Of a stretch of 64,000 nt of DNA, positions 31,002 through 39,943 are shown in pieces. The notes beneath the pieces are model-generated. The model was not told where the DNA came from. It did not search any database and saw only the letters and a list, made by a program, of their open reading frames with translations. Source of the stretch: Agaricicola taiwanensis (GTDB lineage: Bacteria > Pseudomonadota > Alphaproteobacteria > Rhizobiales > Methylopilaceae). Made by a program: the position numbers and the translations under genes. Where the stretch lies: positions 124,001 to 188,000 of the forward strand of contig NZ_BMCP01000003.1 of NCBI RefSeq assembly GCF_014635245.1. The letters run 5' to 3'. Every line of letters begins with the position of its first letter. Positions within the stretch are counted from its first letter, which is position 1.

Positions 31002-31123
31002 GGGCGCGGGCCTTCATCGTCTTCGTTCCGATCGCTGCCGCACGCCATCATAAAGGTTCCAGTACAGGGAACGTGTGCTGCTCTGGCGTGTTCTAGGTGT
31101 CTGGGGCGAGGTAACGGCGGCCG

Positions 31124-31702
31124 ATGTGGACGGACAGTAGTTTTCTGGGGCCTCTCAGCGGGCACATGCTGCAGCACATCGTGCTGATGAACCTGATTGC
31201 TCCGGCCATCGCCTATTGCCTCAGGGATATGCTGCCCAAAGAGCTGTGGCGGAGTTGGCCCTATGCCACCGCCGTCCAGATCGCGCTGATCTGGGGCTGG
31301 CATGCGCCGTCCGTGCTGGAGAGCGCCTTTACCTCCATGTTCCTGATGGGGCTGATGCACGCCTCGCTTTTTGCCGCGGCGCTGTGGTTCTGGGGGACGC
31401 TCGCGAGCATGGCGGGGAATGCGCGCTGGCGCGCGCTGTTCGCGCTGCTTGTCACTGGAAAGCTGTTCTGTCTCCTCGGAGCGCTCCTGGTCTTCGCGCC
31501 GCGAAGCCTGTTTGACGGTTTTTACGATCTCTGCGGCCCTGCCTGGCAGGGCGCGGCGCGGGCCGAGGACCAGCATTTCGCCGGCCTGATGATGCTGATC
31601 GCCTGTCCGCTCAGCTATGTGGCGGCAGGCGTTCTGATATCCGAGCGGTGGTTCCGTGAGCTGGAAATGCTGGATCGTCGCGATGATCGATCGATTATCT
31701 GA
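31124..31702 (+). CDS. CtaG-like cytochrome c oxidase assembly protein
   Basis: A membrane protein of 192 residues with about five hydrophobic helices, related to the caa3-type CtaG family that helps insert copper into oxidase subunits. Family features include the His-rich HMLQHIVLMNLIAPAIAYC start and IWGWHAPSVLESAF, plus HASLFAAALWFWG and EDQHFAGLMMLIAC. It is shorter than most CtaG proteins (about 250-300 residues). An in-frame stop at 31112-31114 rules out a longer start, so one or two N-terminal helices appear absent. It begins the oxidase operon and overlaps the cytochrome gene by 20 bp. Confidence 0.8.
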   Translation: MWTDSSFLGPLSGHMLQHIVLMNLIAPAIAYCLRDMLPKELWRSWPYATAVQIALIWGWHAPSVLESAFTSMFLMGLMHASLFAAALWFWGTLASMAGNARWRALFALLVTGKLFCLLGALLVFAPRSLFDGFYDLCGPAWQGAARAEDQHFAGLMMLIACPLSYVAAGVLISERWFRELEMLDRRDDRSII

Positions 31703-32807
31703 GAAGCTCCCGCCCCTCAGCAGGCTTCAGCGTCTCGGTGTTTCCCTCGCCATCGTCGTCGGTGTCCTGGTGATCGCCGGAGGCGTCTTTGTCCTTTCCG
31801 GCACCTATAATATCGCCGCCGGCCGTGACCACCTTTCGGTCACCACCTGGCTGCTGGAGGTGGTGCGAGACCGATCGATCGCCGCGCGCACCAGCAACAT
31901 CAAGGCGCCCCCGCTCGATGATCCCGACCTCATCGAGCTCGGCGCGCGGCACTACCGTGATGCCTGCAGCTTCTGCCATGGCACGCCGGGGACGCCCAAG
32001 AACCCGGTGGTGGCCCAGATGCTGCCCGCGCCGCCCGATCTCACCCTCTCACCGGAGCGCTACACCCCGGAGGAGCTTTACTGGATCATTGAGAACGGGT
32101 TGAAGTACACCGGCATGCCGGCCTGGTCCGCGGAACATCGCGGCGACGAGGTGTGGTCGGCCGTCGCCTTCATCATGGACCTTCATCGCAACGGGCCGGC
32201 GCGTTACGCGGCCATCGCGGCGGAAGTGCCGCCTGCTTCCATGGAAGGAGAGGAAGGAGGCGATCTTGCCCCGCTGGCAGAATGCGTGACCTGCCATGGT
32301 GATGGGAAACGGCCTCCCGTCAGCGACCTCGTACCGAGCCTCAACGGCCAGTCCCGGTCTTACCTTGCCCGGGCGCTCGACGAATACCGCGGACTGGTTC
32401 GCCCGAGCGGCGTCATGGCGGTGGCCGCGGATGGGCTCAGCGACGCGCAGGTCGAGGCCCTTGCCTCCTACTACGCGGGGCTGCCGGATGTCCGAGGTTC
32501 TATGTCGCCGGTGGAAGGGGATGCCGCGAAAGGCCGCGAGATCGCATTGTCCGGTTTTCGAGATGGAAATGTGCCGGCCTGTGCCGCCTGCCATGCCGGC
32601 GCCGGACGAGCGGCGAATGCGTCACTGGAAGGACTGTCAGCCAGTTACATCACCGGGCAGCTGAACCTGTGGCGGAATGGGGAACGGGCCGATTCCGGCC
32701 ATGGCGCCATCATGATGCCGATTGCGAAGCGGCTCACGGAGCAGCAGATCAAGGATGTGGCCGCCTATTATCAGGCTGAGGCGGTGGCCCAGGAGGAGGC
32801 ACGATGA
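31683..32807 (+). CDS. Membrane-anchored triheme cytochrome c
   Basis: A 374-residue electron carrier with one N-terminal membrane helix (about residues 18-40) and three haem c motifs: CSFCH (95-99), CVTCH (201-205) and CAACH (300-304). The first unit is a lone class I domain, and the last two resemble a tandem c4-type pair. Methionines such as YTGMPAW and MMPIAKR can serve as distal ligands. It probably hands electrons from the bc1 complex to CoxB. ATG 31683 was preferred; an earlier GTG at 31656 lies deep in ctaG. The end overlaps coxB by 4 bp. Confidence 0.88.
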   Translation: MIDRLSEKLPPLSRLQRLGVSLAIVVGVLVIAGGVFVLSGTYNIAAGRDHLSVTTWLLEVVRDRSIAARTSNIKAPPLDDPDLIELGARHYRDACSFCHGTPGTPKNPVVAQMLPAPPDLTLSPERYTPEELYWIIENGLKYTGMPAWSAEHRGDEVWSAVAFIMDLHRNGPARYAAIAAEVPPASMEGEEGGDLAPLAECVTCHGDGKRPPVSDLVPSLNGQSRSYLARALDEYRGLVRPSGVMAVAADGLSDAQVEALASYYAGLPDVRGSMSPVEGDAAKGREIALSGFRDGNVPACAACHAGAGRAANASLEGLSASYITGQLNLWRNGERADSGHGAIMMPIAKRLTEQQIKDVAAYYQAEAVAQEEAR

Positions 32808-33793
32808 TGCACCGCCTCGCGCGTCTCCTGTGGCTAGCTTCCGGAGCGCTGGCGCTCACGGCCTGCGCGGGCGAGCAATCCGCCTTCACTCCCAAGGGCA
32901 TCGAGGCGGAGCGGATCGACACCCTGTTCTGGGTGATGACCATTGCCGGTGGGGTGATCTTCGCCGTGGTGGCAGGCCTGACGCTGGCCGCCATGCTTGG
33001 GGGCCCGCGCCTGCGGGCGAAAATCGCCAGCGAAAAGCTCGTCATCGGCGCGGGCATCCTGTTCCCGGTGGTGTCGCTGACGGCGCTGCTCTTCTGGGGG
33101 TTCATGCTGATGCGGGCCGGTGAGGCAACCGAGCCTTCCGCGATCCGGGTTTCCATCAGCGGCGAGCGGTGGTGGTGGCGCGTGACCTATGAGGATGAGG
33201 CCGGGCGGACCGTCGACACCGCCAATGAGCTTCATCTGCCGGTCGGACAGCCGGTCACCCTGACGCTGACGAGCCCGGACGTGATCCACAGCTTCTGGGT
33301 GCCGCAGCTTGCCGGCAAACTGGACATGATCCCGGGCCGGGAAAACATACTCACCCTCACCGCCACGCAGCCAGGGATCAGCCGCGGGCAATGTGCTGAA
33401 TATTGCGGCGGAGCCCACGCTCTGATGTCCTTCTATGTGGTGGCGCAGGAGCCGGACGAGTTCCGCCGCTGGCTTGATGCGGAGGCCGGCGCGGCGCGGC
33501 CGCCTGAGGGTGCGGAGGCCTTGGAGGGACAGCGCCTGTTTGCGGCACATGGTTGCGGTGCCTGCCATGCCGTGCGCGGCACGGAGGCGCTTGGCACCAT
33601 TGGACCCGATCTCACCCATGTGGGCAGCCGGCATTCGCTCGCCGCCGCCGCGCTGCCCAACCGGACGGAGGATTTCGCGCGCTGGATCCGGGACAGCGAC
33701 CACATCAAGCCGGAAAATCTGATGCCGCCGTACCGGATTTTCAGCGAGGAAGAGCTTGCGGCGCTGGCAGCCTATCTCGAGGGGCTGCGGTGA
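32804..33793 (+). CDS. Cytochrome c oxidase subunit II with fused haem c domain
   Basis: The electron-entry subunit of a caa3-type oxidase, 329 residues. A lipoprotein signal ends at LTAC (C21), and two membrane helices follow (about 40-65 and 82-104). A cupredoxin domain holds the complete CuA site: H162, C197, E199, C201, H205 and M208. A C-terminal cytochrome c domain carries C251-G-A-C-H255. It is preceded by GGAGGAGG and overlaps the triheme cytochrome gene. Its stop overlaps the start of the exchanger gene by one base, so that unexpected neighbour is translationally coupled. Confidence 0.94.
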   Translation: MMHRLARLLWLASGALALTACAGEQSAFTPKGIEAERIDTLFWVMTIAGGVIFAVVAGLTLAAMLGGPRLRAKIASEKLVIGAGILFPVVSLTALLFWGFMLMRAGEATEPSAIRVSISGERWWWRVTYEDEAGRTVDTANELHLPVGQPVTLTLTSPDVIHSFWVPQLAGKLDMIPGRENILTLTATQPGISRGQCAEYCGGAHALMSFYVVAQEPDEFRRWLDAEAGAARPPEGAEALEGQRLFAAHGCGACHAVRGTEALGTIGPDLTHVGSRHSLAAAALPNRTEDFARWIRDSDHIKPENLMPPYRIFSEEELAALAAYLEGLR

Positions 33794-34854
33794 TGGATTT
33801 CGCCCAATTCAGTCCTGTCATCAACGCTATCATTTTCGTCGCGGCCGGCGTGGTCGTGTGGCTCGCCGGTGCCCGGATCACGACCTATGCCAATGCGCTC
33901 AGCATAAAAACAGGCTTCGGCGAGGCCATAGTCGGCATGCTCCTTCTGGCCGGCATCACGTCGCTGCCTGAGGTCGGGGTCACCATCACCTCCGCCGCCA
34001 CCGGAGCGGTGGATATGGCCGTCAACAGCATGTTCGGCAGCATCGCGTTCCAGATCGTCATCCTTGCCGTCGTCGATCTTCTAATTGGACGTCGCGCGCT
34101 GACGGCGGTGGTGCCTGATCCCATGGTGATGCTGCAGGGCGGGTTGAACGTGCTGCTTCTAGCCCTGGTGGTGGCCGGCATGATCGTCGGAGATGTGTCT
34201 ATCGCTGGGGTGGGTGCTTGGGTCTGGGCCAGCCTCGGAGCCTATGTGGCGAGTGTCTATATCATGGCGCAGTCTCAAGGCAGGCGACCATGGCTTGCTG
34301 CGTCGCATGGAAAGGTTGATCGCCGCCTCGACGAGCAGCGGAAGAAGGCGCAGGCTGCCGCAGGAGATGAGCACGGAGATGAATCTCTAACGCGCATCAT
34401 TGTCTGGATTGCCGGTCTCGCGGCGGTCGTCCTTGGCGCAGGCTATCTGCTGGCCATGACCGGCGATGCATTGGCTGAACAATCCGGGCTCGGTGGCAGC
34501 TTCATGGGATTTCTTCTTCTGGCCGCCGCAAGTTCACTGCCCGAGTTGAGTACCGCCATCACAGCCGCGCAAAAAGGGCTCTACACCCTTGCGATCTCCG
34601 ACATCTTGGGCACGAACCTCATCAATATCGCCTTGCTGTTTCCCATCGATGCCATCTCGGACGGCGAGCCGGTGCTCAACGCGTCCGGGCGTTTCGCTCA
34701 ATTCGGCGCCCTGCTCGGCATCATGGTGACCGCTCTGTTCGTCGTCGGCCTTGCCGAGCGAGGCGATAAAACAGTGGCCCGCATGGGGCTCGATTCCATC
34801 GCCGTCTTCGCCGTCTATGGTATCGGTCTCATCATATTGTATGTGCTGCGATGA
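33793..34854 (+). CDS. Sodium/calcium exchanger family (CaCA) membrane protein
   Basis: A cation antiporter of the CaCA superfamily (YrbG-like), 353 residues with about ten helices in two inverted halves. The ion-binding alpha repeats are intact: G-I-T-S-L-P-E at residues 54-60 and S-S-L-P-E near 246-250, with acidic residues that coordinate cations. A soluble loop of about 45 charged residues separates the halves. It lies between coxB and coxA, overlapping the first by one base and the second by four, so it is made with the oxidase. The transported ion cannot be told from the sequence. Confidence 0.88.
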   Translation: MDFAQFSPVINAIIFVAAGVVVWLAGARITTYANALSIKTGFGEAIVGMLLLAGITSLPEVGVTITSAATGAVDMAVNSMFGSIAFQIVILAVVDLLIGRRALTAVVPDPMVMLQGGLNVLLLALVVAGMIVGDVSIAGVGAWVWASLGAYVASVYIMAQSQGRRPWLAASHGKVDRRLDEQRKKAQAAAGDEHGDESLTRIIVWIAGLAAVVLGAGYLLAMTGDALAEQSGLGGSFMGFLLLAAASSLPELSTAITAAQKGLYTLAISDILGTNLINIALLFPIDAISDGEPVLNASGRFAQFGALLGIMVTALFVVGLAERGDKTVARMGLDSIAVFAVYGIGLIILYVLR

Positions 34855-37388
34855 GCGACGATGCCCGACTAGATCTTCCCAACCCCGCTCCACGGCCTGA
34901 GGGCGAGCTGGAGCTCCTGGAGAAGGTCTGGGCTACGCCGAAGGGCTGGCGCATCGTCACGGCCGTCAACAACACCGTCATCGGCGTGTTCTACATCGGC
35001 GCCGCGCTCACCTTCTTCGTGCTGGCGGGCATCCTTGCCCTCATCATGCGCACGCAGCTGGCGGTTGGTGACAACAACTTCGTCAGCCAGGAGCTCTACA
35101 ACCAGCTCTTCACGGTGCATGGCACCACCATGATGTTCCTCTTCGCCGTGCCGGCGGTGGAGGCGCTCGGCGTCATGCTGCTGCCGCAGATGCTGGCGGC
35201 GCGCGACCTGCCGTTCCCGCGGCTCAGCGCCTTTGCGATCTGGGCCTATGTGATCGGTGGGCTCGTCTTCTTCTCCACCATCCTCTACGACCTGGCGCCC
35301 AACGGCGGCTGGTTCATGTATCCGCCGCTGACGCTGATGGAATATTCCCCCGGCGACAACGCCGACTTCTGGCTGCTGGGCATCGGCTTCATCGAGATCT
35401 CGGCCATCGCCGGGGCGGTCGAAATCGTGGTCGGCGTGCTCCGGACCCGGCCGCCGGGCATGACGCTGTCGCGCATGCCGATCTTCGCCTGGGCCATGCT
35501 GATCTTCGCGGCCATGATCATCTTCGCCTTTCCGGCGGTGATCCTCGCCACCATGCTGCTCGAGATCGAGCGCGCCTTCGGCTGGCCTTTCTTCACGGCG
35601 GAGAAGGGCGGCGACAGCCTGCTCTGGCAGCACCTCTTCTGGTTCTTCGGCCATCCGGAGGTCTACATCATCTTTCTGCCGGCGGCGGGCCTTGTCTCCA
35701 TGATGGTGCCCACTTTCGCGCAGACGCCGCTCGTCGGGCACCGCCTCATCGTGGTGGCGCTGGTGGCCACGGGCTTCTTCAGCTTCGGGCTGTGGGTGCA
35801 CCACATGTTCACGACAGGCATCCCAGCGTTGAGCCTCGCCTTCTTCTCGGCCGCCAGCATGGCGGTGGCGGTGCCCTCGGGCATCCAGGTCTTCTCCTGG
35901 ATCGCGACCATAGCCAAAGGCCGCGAGCGCTTCCGCATCACGGTGCCCTCGCTCTTCATTCTCGGCTTTCTCTTCATCTTCACGCTGGGCGGGCTTACCG
36001 GCGTCATGGTGGCTCTGGTGCCCTTCGACTTTCAGGCGCATGACAGCTACTTCATCGTGGCGCATCTGCATTACGTGCTGGTGGGCGGCATGGTCTTCCC
36101 GCTCTTTGCCACCTTCTACTATTGGGCGCCCATGGTGAGCCGGAAGATGCTGTCGGAACGGCTCGGCCGCTGGACCTTCTGGCTGATGTTCATCGGCTTC
36201 AACGTAGCCTTCTTCCCGCTCCACATCGCGGGTCTTGCCGGCATGCCGCGCCGGGTGTGGACCTATCCCAGCAATCTCGGCTGGGACACGCTGAACATGA
36301 TCTCCACCATCGGCTCCTTCATGATTGCCGCCGGCGTCCTCGCCTTCCTGATCGATCTTGCCAAAAACTTCCGGATGGGCAGCGGCGCGCCGGAAAATCC
36401 CTGGGGCGCCAGCACGCTGGAGTGGCTGCCCAACGATGTCTATTCCACCCGCAGCATTCCCCATGTCACCAGCCGCGATCCGATCTGGGACAATCCCAAC
36501 CTGCCGCGCGAGGTGGAGGAGGGGCGGCACTATCTGCCAGGCGTCCCCACTGGAGCGCGCGAGACCATCGTGACCTCGCCCATCGACGCACGCCCGCAAT
36601 ACGTCATCCAGATGCCGGGGCCGGGCTGGATGCATCTCTCAGCCGCCGTCTTCACCGCCGCCTTCTTCCTGCTTTTGACGGTGAAGGCGGTGACCATCTC
36701 CATCATCTGCGGCATCCTCGCCATCGTCTCCTGCCTGGTCTGGGCATGGCAGCTCGACAAGCCAAGCCAGGGCGAGGTGGATATCGGCGCGGGGATTGCC
36801 CTGCCGACCTATCGCACGGGCTCATCGTCACACAGTTGGTGGGCCATGGTCGTGCTCATGATCGTGTCGGCGGCACTCTACCTCTCCTATCTCTTCTCCT
36901 ACCTCTATCTGTGGACCGTCTCGCCGGAGGTATGGGCGCCCGTAGGCTCCCCCGCGCTTCCCGCTCTCGGCTATCCCCTCGGCACCGCCGCCATGCTTGT
37001 CCTCGGCGCGGTCATTCTGGCGGTGAGGCAGCGCAGCCTGCCCCGCGAGCCGAAGCGGGATGTGGGCACCGCGATCGCTGCCGTCACCGCATCGGCTTTG
37101 CTGATCGGGGCGCTGGCGCTGGAGATCTGGGGGCACTGGCAGACGGGGCTGCGACCGACGGCCAGTTCCTACGGCGCCATGGTCTACATGGGGGCGGTGC
37201 TGACCGTGCAGGCCGCCGTCGCCGTCATCATCATGTGCTTCTTCGCCGCCGCGCGGGGCCTGACGCGGCAGCTCACCCGCGAGCGCCGCGTCACCTTCGA
37301 CAATGCGGCGATCTATTACTACTACACCGTGGCCCAGGGCCTTCTCGGCCTGTTGCTGATCCACGGGTTCCCACGGCTGGCGGGGTGA
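34851..37388 (+). CDS. Cytochrome c oxidase subunit I fused to subunit III
   Basis: The catalytic subunit of an A-type haem-copper oxidase with a C-terminal subunit III-like region, 845 residues. Subunit I landmarks appear in order: HGTTMMF (low-spin haem His), ARDLPFPR (D-channel Asp), WQHLFWFFGHPEVY (CuB His, cross-linked Tyr and the channel Glu), HHMFTTG (two CuB His) and HDSYFIVAHLHYV (haem ligands). From about residue 650 the sequence resembles a shortened CoxC with five or so helices. It is coupled to the exchanger gene by a 4-bp overlap. All catalytic residues are present. Confidence 0.94.
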   Translation: MSDDARLDLPNPAPRPEGELELLEKVWATPKGWRIVTAVNNTVIGVFYIGAALTFFVLAGILALIMRTQLAVGDNNFVSQELYNQLFTVHGTTMMFLFAVPAVEALGVMLLPQMLAARDLPFPRLSAFAIWAYVIGGLVFFSTILYDLAPNGGWFMYPPLTLMEYSPGDNADFWLLGIGFIEISAIAGAVEIVVGVLRTRPPGMTLSRMPIFAWAMLIFAAMIIFAFPAVILATMLLEIERAFGWPFFTAEKGGDSLLWQHLFWFFGHPEVYIIFLPAAGLVSMMVPTFAQTPLVGHRLIVVALVATGFFSFGLWVHHMFTTGIPALSLAFFSAASMAVAVPSGIQVFSWIATIAKGRERFRITVPSLFILGFLFIFTLGGLTGVMVALVPFDFQAHDSYFIVAHLHYVLVGGMVFPLFATFYYWAPMVSRKMLSERLGRWTFWLMFIGFNVAFFPLHIAGLAGMPRRVWTYPSNLGWDTLNMISTIGSFMIAAGVLAFLIDLAKNFRMGSGAPENPWGASTLEWLPNDVYSTRSIPHVTSRDPIWDNPNLPREVEEGRHYLPGVPTGARETIVTSPIDARPQYVIQMPGPGWMHLSAAVFTAAFFLLLTVKAVTISIICGILAIVSCLVWAWQLDKPSQGEVDIGAGIALPTYRTGSSSHSWWAMVVLMIVSAALYLSYLFSYLYLWTVSPEVWAPVGSPALPALGYPLGTAAMLVLGAVILAVRQRSLPREPKRDVGTAIAAVTASALLIGALALEIWGHWQTGLRPTASSYGAMVYMGAVLTVQAAVAVIIMCFFAAARGLTRQLTRERRVTFDNAAIYYYYTVAQGLLGLLLIHGFPRLAG

Positions 37389-37393
37389 GGGCG

Positions 37394-37768
37394 ATGGAAC
37401 GTTTCAGCCAACACCGTTCCGCCACCGGTGCCCTCGTCTTCCTGCTGCTCGGCCCGCTGGTATGGAGCATCCATTTCTTCATCATCTATGCCGCGCACGC
37501 CTCGCTCTGCGCGCTGACTGGCGGCATGGGCACCGTCTGGATCACGGTGATCATCCTTGCCGTCACGGCTCTGGGCGCCCTCGCGTTGGTGTCCGCCGCG
37601 CTGGGCCCGATGCCGGTCTATCGTCTGCTCGTGCGTCATCCGGGGGGCGATGAGGAAACACGGTTCCTGATCGCCGGCATGCGGCTTCTGGCCGGTCTTT
37701 CGACCTTGGCCATCATCTGGGGCGGCACGGCCGTCCTCGTCCTGCCGCTCTGCGCGCAGCTTCGCTGA
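37394..37768 (+). CDS. Small membrane protein of the oxidase operon
   Basis: A 124-residue protein with three predicted membrane helices (about residues 12-32, 42-64 and 93-118). It begins six bases after coxA at an ATG following a G-rich ribosome site, and ends two bases before the convergent DUF457 gene. I do not recognise a named family. Position and size suggest a small oxidase subunit or assembly helper. The long upstream frame that would extend it is a mirror of coxA. Confidence 0.65.
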   Translation: MERFSQHRSATGALVFLLLGPLVWSIHFFIIYAAHASLCALTGGMGTVWITVIILAVTALGALALVSAALGPMPVYRLLVRHPGGDEETRFLIAGMRLLAGLSTLAIIWGGTAVLVLPLCAQLR

Positions 37769-38757: not shown

Positions 38758-38763
38758 CGTGAA

Positions 38764-38860
38764 TTGTCGGATGCCCAGTTCGGGTCCGGCATGTCGCGCG
38801 GAGGCAGAAGCATACGGCGACAGCAGCTTGTATCCATGTTGCTCAAAGGAGGATGTGGCT
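38764..38860 (+). ncRNA. ROSE-type RNA thermometer in the leader of hsp20
   Basis: The last hairpin (38834-38858) hides the AGGAGG ribosome site at 38847-38852. C34-C35-A-U-G-U-U pairs with the bases after the site, then G41 bulges, and C-U-C pairs with G-A-G, leaving a 4-base loop (last two digits are positions after 38800). The anti-site sequence is UUGCU with one bulged G, the hallmark of ROSE elements, where that G is needed for melting. An upstream GATGCC/GGCAT stem may form a second hairpin. Heat should open the site and allow translation. Confidence 0.75.
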
Positions 38861-39337
38861 ATGAGAACCACTCTTGATTTCACGCCCCTGTTCAGGTCGA
38901 GTATCGGTTTCGACCGAATGCTGAACGCGCTCGAAGCCGCGAGCCGCGTCGAGACCATCGACAACTGGCCTCAGTATGACATCGCCAAGTTTGGGGAGGA
39001 CGATTACCGCATCACCATGGCGGTGGCCGGCTTCAGCCAAAACGAACTGACCATCACTCAGGAGCAGAACATGCTCATGGTGTCCGGTCAGAAGGCTGGC
39101 GAGGATGAGGGCCAGTATCTGCATCGTGGCATTGCCGAGCGGGTCTTCAGGCGCCGCTTCGAACTCGCCGACCATGTCAAGGTTGTAGGCGCGAGCCTCG
39201 TCGATGGTCTGCTCACCATCGATCTCAAGCGTGAGCTTCCGGAAGAGATGAAGCCGCGCAGGATCGAGATCGCGACCGGCGAGAAGCTGCCAAGGGCCGG
39301 GACGAAGCAGATCGAGACCGGCAAGCAGGCGGCCTGA
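38861..39337 (+). CDS. Small heat-shock protein Hsp20 (IbpA-like)
   Basis: An ATP-independent chaperone that holds unfolding proteins. The 158-residue protein starts MRTTLDFTPLFRSSIGFDRM, typical of class A rhizobial Hsp20/IbpA. It contains an alpha-crystallin domain (about residues 35-130) with the consensus VDGLLTIDLKRELPEE-type ending and a short polar C-terminal tail. ATG 38861 directly follows AGGAGG; the longer upstream frame would run through the thermometer. Promoter and leader point to double heat control, by RpoH and by ROSE. A second Hsp20 gene follows 96 bp later. Confidence 0.92.
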   Translation: MRTTLDFTPLFRSSIGFDRMLNALEAASRVETIDNWPQYDIAKFGEDDYRITMAVAGFSQNELTITQEQNMLMVSGQKAGEDEGQYLHRGIAERVFRRRFELADHVKVVGASLVDGLLTIDLKRELPEEMKPRRIEIATGEKLPRAGTKQIETGKQAA

Positions 39338-39399: not shown

Positions 39400-39433
39400 C
39401 ATTGTCAATCGCACGAACGGAAAGGAGGAAATG

Positions 39434-39943
39434 ATGAGTGTCCGTGATCTGATCCCCTGGGGCCGCAGCAACGGCAACCAGGTTCCGAGCATCTTCCGCG
39501 ATGGCGAGCGCGATCCGTTCCTGTCGCTGCACCGCGAGGTGAACCGGCTGTTCGATGACGTTTTCCGAGGTTTCGGTTCCAGCCTGCCGTCCTTCGGTGG
39601 TGTTTCCGCTTTCGGCGGGGGCTGGCCGAGTGTCGAGATCTCCGACGGCGAGAAGGAGATCAGGGTGACGGCCGAGGTCCCCGGCCTTGAGGAAAAGGAC
39701 ATTGAGGTCCTCCTCAATGACGGCGTGCTCACGCTCAGGGGTGAGAAGCGCTCCGAAACGGAGGACAAGGACAAGCAGTTCTCCGAGCGCTTCTATGGCC
39801 GCTTCGAGCGACGCATCCCGCTCGACTGCGAGATCAGGGAAGACGAGGTCGACGCGCGTTTCAGGAATGGCGTGCTGACGGTAACCCTGCCCAAGAACGA
39901 AAAGGCGCAGTCGCAGGTCAAGCGCATCGCGATCAAAAGGTGA
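39434..39943 (+). CDS. Small heat-shock protein Hsp20
   Basis: A second Hsp20 chaperone, 169 residues, of the HSP16.5-like class: an N-terminal arm with DPFLSLHREVNRLFDDVFRGF, then an alpha-crystallin domain (about 60-150) containing VEISDGEKEIRVTAEVPGLEE and the FRNGVLTVTLPKNE strand. It ends with a short AIKR tail. AGGAGG lies five bases before ATG 39434 and only two before ATG 39431, so the second ATG is preferred. No thermometer-like pairing of its ribosome site is apparent. It differs clearly from the first Hsp20, so it is not a recent duplicate. Confidence 0.92.
   Translation: MSVRDLIPWGRSNGNQVPSIFRDGERDPFLSLHREVNRLFDDVFRGFGSSLPSFGGVSAFGGGWPSVEISDGEKEIRVTAEVPGLEEKDIEVLLNDGVLTLRGEKRSETEDKDKQFSERFYGRFERRIPLDCEIREDEVDARFRNGVLTVTLPKNEKAQSQVKRIAIKR

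Follow-up and report, generated by a model that had tools for sequence, protein, structure and literature searches.

A CaCA-family cation exchanger gene between coxB and coxA of a putatively stress-inducible caa3 oxidase operon in Agaricicola taiwanensis and other proteobacteria

The stretch of DNA analysed here (the window) comprises 64,000 nucleotides of the Agaricicola taiwanensis contig NZ_BMCP01000003.1 (positions 124,001 to 188,000, forward strand). It carries a run of six genes on the + strand, which encode the assembly factor CtaG, a c-type cytochrome, subunit II of a terminal oxidase (coxB), a cation exchanger of the CaCA family, subunit I (coxA) and a small hydrophobic protein (Table 1). 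The oxidase is of the caa3 type: the CoxA and CoxB families both scored above their cut-offs and subunit II carries a cytochrome c domain (PF00034). The TGA stop codon of coxB (33791-33793) and the ATG start codon of the exchanger (33793) have one base in common, and the ATG of coxA (34851) overlaps the end of the exchanger gene by 4 base pairs (bp; ATGA, 34851-34854). A first-pass annotation of the window had placed the exchanger between subunits II and I with overlaps of 1 bp and 4 bp, and this description was exact when we re-read the coordinates.

Table 1. Genes of the oxidase operon and the promoter-like site in front of it (positions within the window; aa, amino acids)
Feature	Position	Strand	Remarks
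EcfG-type promoter-like site GGAAC-N16-TGTT	31068..31092	+	56 bases before ctaG start codon
ctaG, caa3 oxidase assembly factor (Caa3_CtaG)	31124..31702	+	PF09678 58.3 bits, cut-off 27.7
c-type cytochrome, several heme c domains	31656..32807	+	PF13442 + PF00034; GTG start as listed, in-frame ATG at 31683
coxB, subunit II fused to cytochrome c domain (caa3 type)	32804..33793	+	PF00116 + PF00034; TIGR02866 151.4 bits, cut-off 147.7
CaCA-family cation exchanger, 353 aa	33793..34854	+	PF01699, two stretches
coxA, subunit I, probably fused to subunit III, A-family heme-copper oxidase	34851..37388	+	TIGR02891 685 bits, cut-off 670.75
Small hydrophobic protein, 124 aa, last operon gene, 5 bases after coxA	37394..37768	+	

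The exchanger was matched by Pfam family PF01699 in two stretches (86.1 bits, cut-off 24.9), and it is the sole PF01699 gene found in the window genome, where the two matches are its two halves. When an AlphaFold2 model of the protein (mean predicted local distance difference test score 87.5) was compared with known structures, the top 26 rows were all CaCA exchangers with Z-scores of 21.8-30.9, including NCX1 (30.9), NCLX (28.2), CAX (26.6) and NCX_Mj (25.7). The next row reached 7.1 and no non-CaCA fold was prominent in this comparison. Two curated families stayed below their cut-offs: the calcium/sodium antiporter family TIGR00367 gave 85.1 of the required 179.65 bits and the calcium/proton exchanger family TIGR00846 gave 24.9 of 317.45 bits. 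The glutamate of the SLPE motif is present in both alpha repeats (E60, E251) and was invariant in all 12 aligned operon members. At the places that we take to be Asn81 and Asp240 of NCX_Mj, the window protein carries Q87 and N278, and by these residues it is not of the NCX type. Judged by family, fold and motifs, the protein is a genuine CaCA antiporter with predicted transport activity, and we infer that it works with an altered site. To our knowledge, the physiological role of bacterial CaCA exchangers is largely open.

The insertion is not confined to the window. When 397 genomes of the same order were surveyed, with up to two subunit I candidates scored per genome and regions fetched for 20 of the 66 listed matches, all five other genomes with a subunit I of 77-79% identity (blastp) had the exchanger in the same slot. 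It was absent from all ten fetched sister operons with a subunit I of 56-67% identity, where coxB and coxA overlap by 4 bp in eight cases and are separated by gaps of -1 and +56 in the other two. Five further operons (subunit I 45-49%), including the second such operon of the window genome, also lacked it, one of them with a gap of 175. Within the family to which the window belongs, no exchanger match was obtained in the 17 other genomes searched, three of which carry an exchanger-free sister operon. Across the class (385 genomes), an exchanger match at E 1e-15 or better was found in 16 genomes; leaving the window genome aside, two of the other 15 (54% and 53% identity) have it in the operon. 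Among 60 exchanger rows, 30 came with loci; oxidase genes were present in the 1.5 kb flanks of six of these (window included) and none were found in those of 24.

Named species genomes were searched with an alignment of operon exchangers, and the best 80 of 161 loci were kept; a search of named genomes with a single exchanger sequence had retrieved no relative. Genes and start codons in the fetched loci were set by simple rules rather than by a gene finder. Here, 43 of the 80 loci have the exchanger flanked by coxB and coxA in the same orientation, a proportion that is no measure of prevalence since the retrieval was targeted at the operon exchanger clade. The insertions come from alphaproteobacteria (among them Devosia, Pelagibacterium, Chelatococcus, Mesorhizobium, Sinorhizobium, Stella, Reyranella, Hyphomonas and Parvularcula), betaproteobacteria (Nitrosospira, Keguizhuia, Ramlibacter) and gammaproteobacteria (Methylobacter, Methylomicrobium). 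Their gaps range from -8 to +36 between coxB and the exchanger and from -11 to +13 between the exchanger and coxA. Nine of the 80 loci have other arrangements near such an operon, e.g. in Roseomonas, Falsiroseomonas and Belnapia, with the exchanger following coxA at a distance of about 370 bases. The first-pass annotation had proposed a survey for the same insertion and had named restriction to this strain as a sign of accident; the survey found it recurring in many proteobacteria, and such a restriction does not hold.

Plasmids carry the gene set as well. In a plasmid collection, 86 records matched at 1e-10 and 65 of these were from Sinorhizobium. Seven of ten inspected records have the order coxB-exchanger-coxA (three S. 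meliloti, Rhizobium, Ciceribacter, Peteryoungia, Aquibium), and a model organism, Sinorhizobium meliloti 1021, has the operon on pSymB. The plasmid exchangers of Sulfitobacter and Limimaricola have no oxidase nearby, and that of Aurantiacibacter is convergent with an oxidase operon. On the Aquibium oceanicum plasmid (L091:5917-6983), the exchanger and coxB are each broken into two frames, and in Ciceribacter (L089) the exchanger and coxA are in pieces; either decay or sequencing errors would account for this.

The 12 operon exchangers form one clade (support 100/99) among 40 other exchangers, and the twelve exchanger-linked subunits I form one clade (100/100) in a tree of 27; row L101 was left out of the 52-exchanger tree, and the frame-broken L089 and L091 were left out of the trees. 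On larger trees, which were quick searches without bootstrap, the insertion label changes six times among 93 exchanger rows and twice among 66 subunit I rows, which is compatible either with a single old origin, some betaproteobacteria excepted, or with a small number of origins. The gene set is patchy in its occurrence and probably moves horizontally. Three Nitrosospira loci (L129, L136, L137) have an operon of the Devosiaceae type (exchanger 60-61%, subunit I 75-78% identity), and two of their three exchangers carry His at the place of NCX_Mj Asp240. Both trees place them within the Devosiaceae, and it therefore looks as if the operon as a whole had been transferred between classes.

A different pattern was seen at three other loci. 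In L071, the exchanger is nearest to those of Mesorhizobium alhagi and Sinorhizobium, but ctaG, cytochrome c, coxB and coxA are nearest to Devosia subaequoris. In L139 and L145, the same four genes are, after each other, nearest to M. alhagi, but the exchanger is not. The simplest reading of these sequences is that the exchanger alone was swapped in place by a divergent homologue at least twice, and a slot that is refilled in this way looks selected, useful and modular. When pairwise distances over 40 loci were compared with those of coxA, the exchanger correlated with r 0.74 (0.82 without the three replaced loci) and coxB with r 0.87.

The promoter-like site in front of ctaG resembles the target of EcfG, the alphaproteobacterial general stress sigma factor, for which excerpts of two papers give the consensus GGAAC-N16-CGTT (PMC3892343, PMC7083833) and an excerpt of a third gives GGAAC-N17-20-GTT in Sphingomonas melonis (PMC6599016). 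Such a motif occurs in 94 of 8774 200-bp tiles of the fetched loci. Counted over the whole window genome, sites of the strict consensus exceed those of its reversed control only mildly (50 vs 37), so that the single site of the window proves nothing alone; it counts because the operons of its relatives carry the motif far above shuffles. The motif was first spotted by pattern and then tested on the same loci: in this first set, GGAAC-N17-GTT lies within 200 bases upstream of 5 of 11 exchanger operons (shuffle mean 0.03). In the named set, which overlaps the first (e.g. the genomes of L110 and L111 recur as L150 and L151), the operon count covers the 35 of 43 insertion loci whose first detected gene is ctaG. 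Among the 31 alphaproteobacterial operons of this kind, 18 carry the motif with N16-18 and 15 carry it with N17, against a shuffle mean of 0.126 and with no equally high count in 1000 shuffles. The four beta- and gammaproteobacterial operons starting with ctaG had no motif; since EcfG is said to be exclusive to Alphaproteobacteria (excerpt of PMC3892343), this count is small but in the expected direction. The remaining eight of the 43 loci had no motif, and in all 43 operons the 250 bases preceding the exchanger were free of it, so that the exchanger would depend on the operon promoter. Exchangers outside the operon showed the motif in 9 of 26 alphaproteobacterial cases (shuffle mean 0.21; five at 32-34 bases before the start codon) and in none of 11 cases from other bacteria, a status taken from the record title. 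A further set of 37 alphaproteobacterial relatives contained it in five (0.27 expected). By pattern matching, both the alphaproteobacterial operons and the outside exchangers thus appear enriched in EcfG-type motifs far above shuffles.

The window genome encodes NepR, the anti-sigma factor of the EcfG response. Its second oxidase of this general type, which is exchanger-free (subunit I at C4:114816-117260, region G000:C4:103260-117260), lies about 11.5 kb from NepR (C4:103260), and a strict EcfG consensus is found at C4:110541. Shortly downstream of the operon in the window there are two genes for Hsp20 small heat-shock proteins (38759-39337 and 39431-39943; PF00011, 69.7 and 78.9 bits), which is in keeping with a stress neighbourhood.

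As to the other operon members, polypeptide I+III of PDB entry 2yev aligns to residues 26-701 of coxA, and Pfam matched COX1 only (44-491). The 124-aa hydrophobic protein had no Pfam match at E 0.01; homologues are present at 38 of the 43 insertion loci and in several exchanger-free operons, and it is possibly a small oxidase subunit. The window genome (3.76 Mb assembly) has four genes for heme-copper oxidase subunit I (PF00115).

The architecture of the operon, its conservation, the apparent replacement of the exchanger within its slot and the enrichment of the motif before the operon and before outside relatives can be read from the sequences directly. From these we infer a function of the motif, the transported ion and its direction, the coupling ion and a functional dependence on the oxidase. 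With moderate confidence, we propose that the exchanger is a standing member of a six-gene stress-inducible caa3 operon and would spend the proton-motive force of the oxidase on cation export. According to this proposal, EcfG would turn on the operon in many Alphaproteobacteria and the oxidase would maintain the proton-motive force in stressed or starved cells. The co-translated exchanger would spend part of this force by letting H+ or Na+ inward, and would thereby export Ca2+, or another divalent cation like it, from the cytoplasm. By analogy with the caa3 oxidase of Pseudomonas aeruginosa (see below), the operon would most likely provide a stress-induced survival oxidase that powers a co-made exchanger. 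The putative stress switch on an exchanger-bearing operon suggests that stressed cells may link respiration to ion export, and if the coupling is real, the way in which stressed bacteria respire would include cation export. The first-pass annotation had already suggested that the oxidase-generated gradient serves the exchanger; the idea is compatible with our observations, and the use itself enters the proposal as a predicted step.

Several observations weigh against this proposal. The -10 element of the window site is TGTT and not the CGTT of the full consensus, and 13 of the 31 alphaproteobacterial operons are motif-free, including all four counted Devosia loci, which are close kin of the window operon. 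The shuffles ignore kinship, and 7 of the 18 motif-bearing operons are Sinorhizobium/Ensifer-like. In the first set, the motif also precedes three of four exchanger-free sister operons (shuffle mean 0.006), which ties it to the oxidase operon no less than to the exchanger, and on the reverse strand it was found in 0 of 11 operons with the exchanger and in one of four without it. There was no such oxidase operon within the retrieved stretch at 28 of the 80 named loci. The place of Asp240 holds Asn in 29 of the 43 insertions, Asp, the residue of the Rhizobiaceae type, in 11 and His in 2, and it was unreadable by motif in L176; given this variation, the ion and the stoichiometry may differ from those of NCX.

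The main rival is co-regulation only: two separate general stress genes would share a promoter and have no energetic or physical link. We consider this account possible but rather less probable. It draws on the EcfG motifs that alphaproteobacterial exchangers outside the operon carry on their own (9 of 26), on those before exchanger-free sister operons (3 of 4), and on the 9 of 28 oxidase-free loci where the exchanger lies instead beside a fusion protein of epimerase-SPW-VKOR-SPW order. However, the pairing of exchanger and oxidase persists in beta- and gammaproteobacteria, where the EcfG motif was absent (0 of 4), it recurs in several arrangements, and its slot was seemingly refilled after replacement.

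The fusion protein just mentioned (about 820-890 aa; NAD-dependent epimerase, SPW repeats and VKOR) is often found near exchangers outside the operon and thus forms a second partner that recurs beside this exchanger. The nine loci are L207 (3427-5889), L175, L178, L180, L187, L188, L197, L198 and L204, and it also occurs at the plasmid loci L087 and L088 and at the oxidase loci L160 and L166, with a partial match at L130. The window genome gave no match in a search that lacked a positive control. Bulk Pfam scans of neighbouring open reading frames covered 70 of 134 in one set and 118 of 138 in the other.

A bolder version of our proposal, which must be regarded as doubtful, is that oxidase and exchanger act as one unit in stressed cells. 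Within it the exchanger would serve as a regulated drain, which would convert the proton-motive force of the oxidase to cation export and hold membrane potential and cytoplasmic calcium in bounds, with a slot taking different exchanger subtypes. The swaps in L071 and L139/L145 suggest that the slot accepts such subtypes. If the drain were real, the oxidase would keep accepting electrons when ATP demand is low.

A role of the exchanger in oxidase assembly or as an accessory subunit, for example by supplying a divalent metal for cofactor insertion or by binding to the complex, is unlikely. Its placement between core subunits fits this idea since translational coupling would favour co-assembly, and excerpts of two papers describe transporters needed for other oxidases (CcoA, PMC5829832; major facilitator superfamily genes for E. 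coli bo3, PMC10588857). However, operons of the same composition with a subunit I of 56-67% identity exist without the exchanger, and the exchanger was apparently swapped as a whole gene with no matching change in the subunits. Its distances also track those of coxA less well than the distances of coxB do, and a close physical subunit is not favoured by these correlations.

Canonical aa3 oxidases bind Ca2+ or Na+, and the first-pass annotation had offered control of calcium near the oxidase, with its bound cations, as a role of the exchanger. We compared the glutamate of the MRMEL motif, which we take to be a ligand of this site, using the canonical aa3 subunit I of the window genome as reference (alignment row L209 was not counted). 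The reference has this glutamate (VAMRMELQEPG), but it is Gln in every aligned caa3-type subunit I, with or without the exchanger. With the presumed ligand replaced, service of the exchanger to the cation site is highly improbable, and this part of the earlier annotation found no support. A need for calcium export because of a Ca2+-dependent pyrroloquinoline quinone (PQQ) sugar dehydrogenase was also considered. Sorbosone dehydrogenase and DUF2231 are annotated beside the S. meliloti operon and near the Aurantiacibacter genes. Among 118 neighbour proteins from 30 insertion loci, only two had a GSDH match, so that a PQQ dehydrogenase link is not general and this candidate was rejected.

An accidental, functionless insertion, for which one might cite the patchiness (no match in the 17 other family genomes, a gene in two frames on the Aquibium oceanicum plasmid), has hardly any credibility left and is contradicted by the wide recurrence (43 of 80 named loci) with mostly intact frames and conserved site residues.

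When the operon is compared with known systems, its parts are familiar. It shares the subunits, the cytochrome c fusion and the assembly factor with caa3 operons (coxB-coxA with ctaG and cytochrome c), whose family cut-offs it passes, but the exchanger between coxB and coxA distinguishes it from 15 fetched operons with a subunit I of 45-67% identity. From end to end the exchanger has the fold of the solved CaCA exchangers (NCX_Mj, NCX1, NCLX, CAX/YfkE/Vcx1), and it shares both SLPE motifs with them. It differs in that its gene lies within a respiratory operon, in that the structural alignments give 10-17% identity, and in the residues corresponding to Asn81 and Asp240, which are Gln and Asn. 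The caa3 oxidase of P. aeruginosa is RpoS-dependent and raises fitness in carbon starvation (excerpt of PMC5436846). As far as this excerpt goes, its operon coxBA-PA0107-coxC likewise keeps a caa3 oxidase for starvation under a stress sigma factor, but that factor is RpoS and not EcfG, and its four named genes include no exchanger. Rhizobium etli has the alternative aa3 oxidases coxPONM, and CH00981-CH00985, probably a third oxidase, is noted there as lacking expression; the text passages compared name no exchanger for either (PMC3188799). In the portions of the open-access literature covered, we recognised no paper that describes an exchanger as part of an oxidase operon or of the EcfG regulon. 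Excerpts of PMC3616915, PMC6180224, PMC10315480 and PMC2651895 contain nothing on an exchanger-oxidase cluster, and the main texts of two surveys of alphaproteobacterial oxidase operons (PMC6431628, PMC4013037) do not mention calcium, exchanger or antiporter. In the literature searched, the combination was not found, and the EcfG motifs before exchanger-bearing caa3 operons and before exchangers outside them are a new observation of this analysis. The finding joins three fields, namely alternative caa3 oxidases, bacterial CaCA exchangers and the alphaproteobacterial general stress response.
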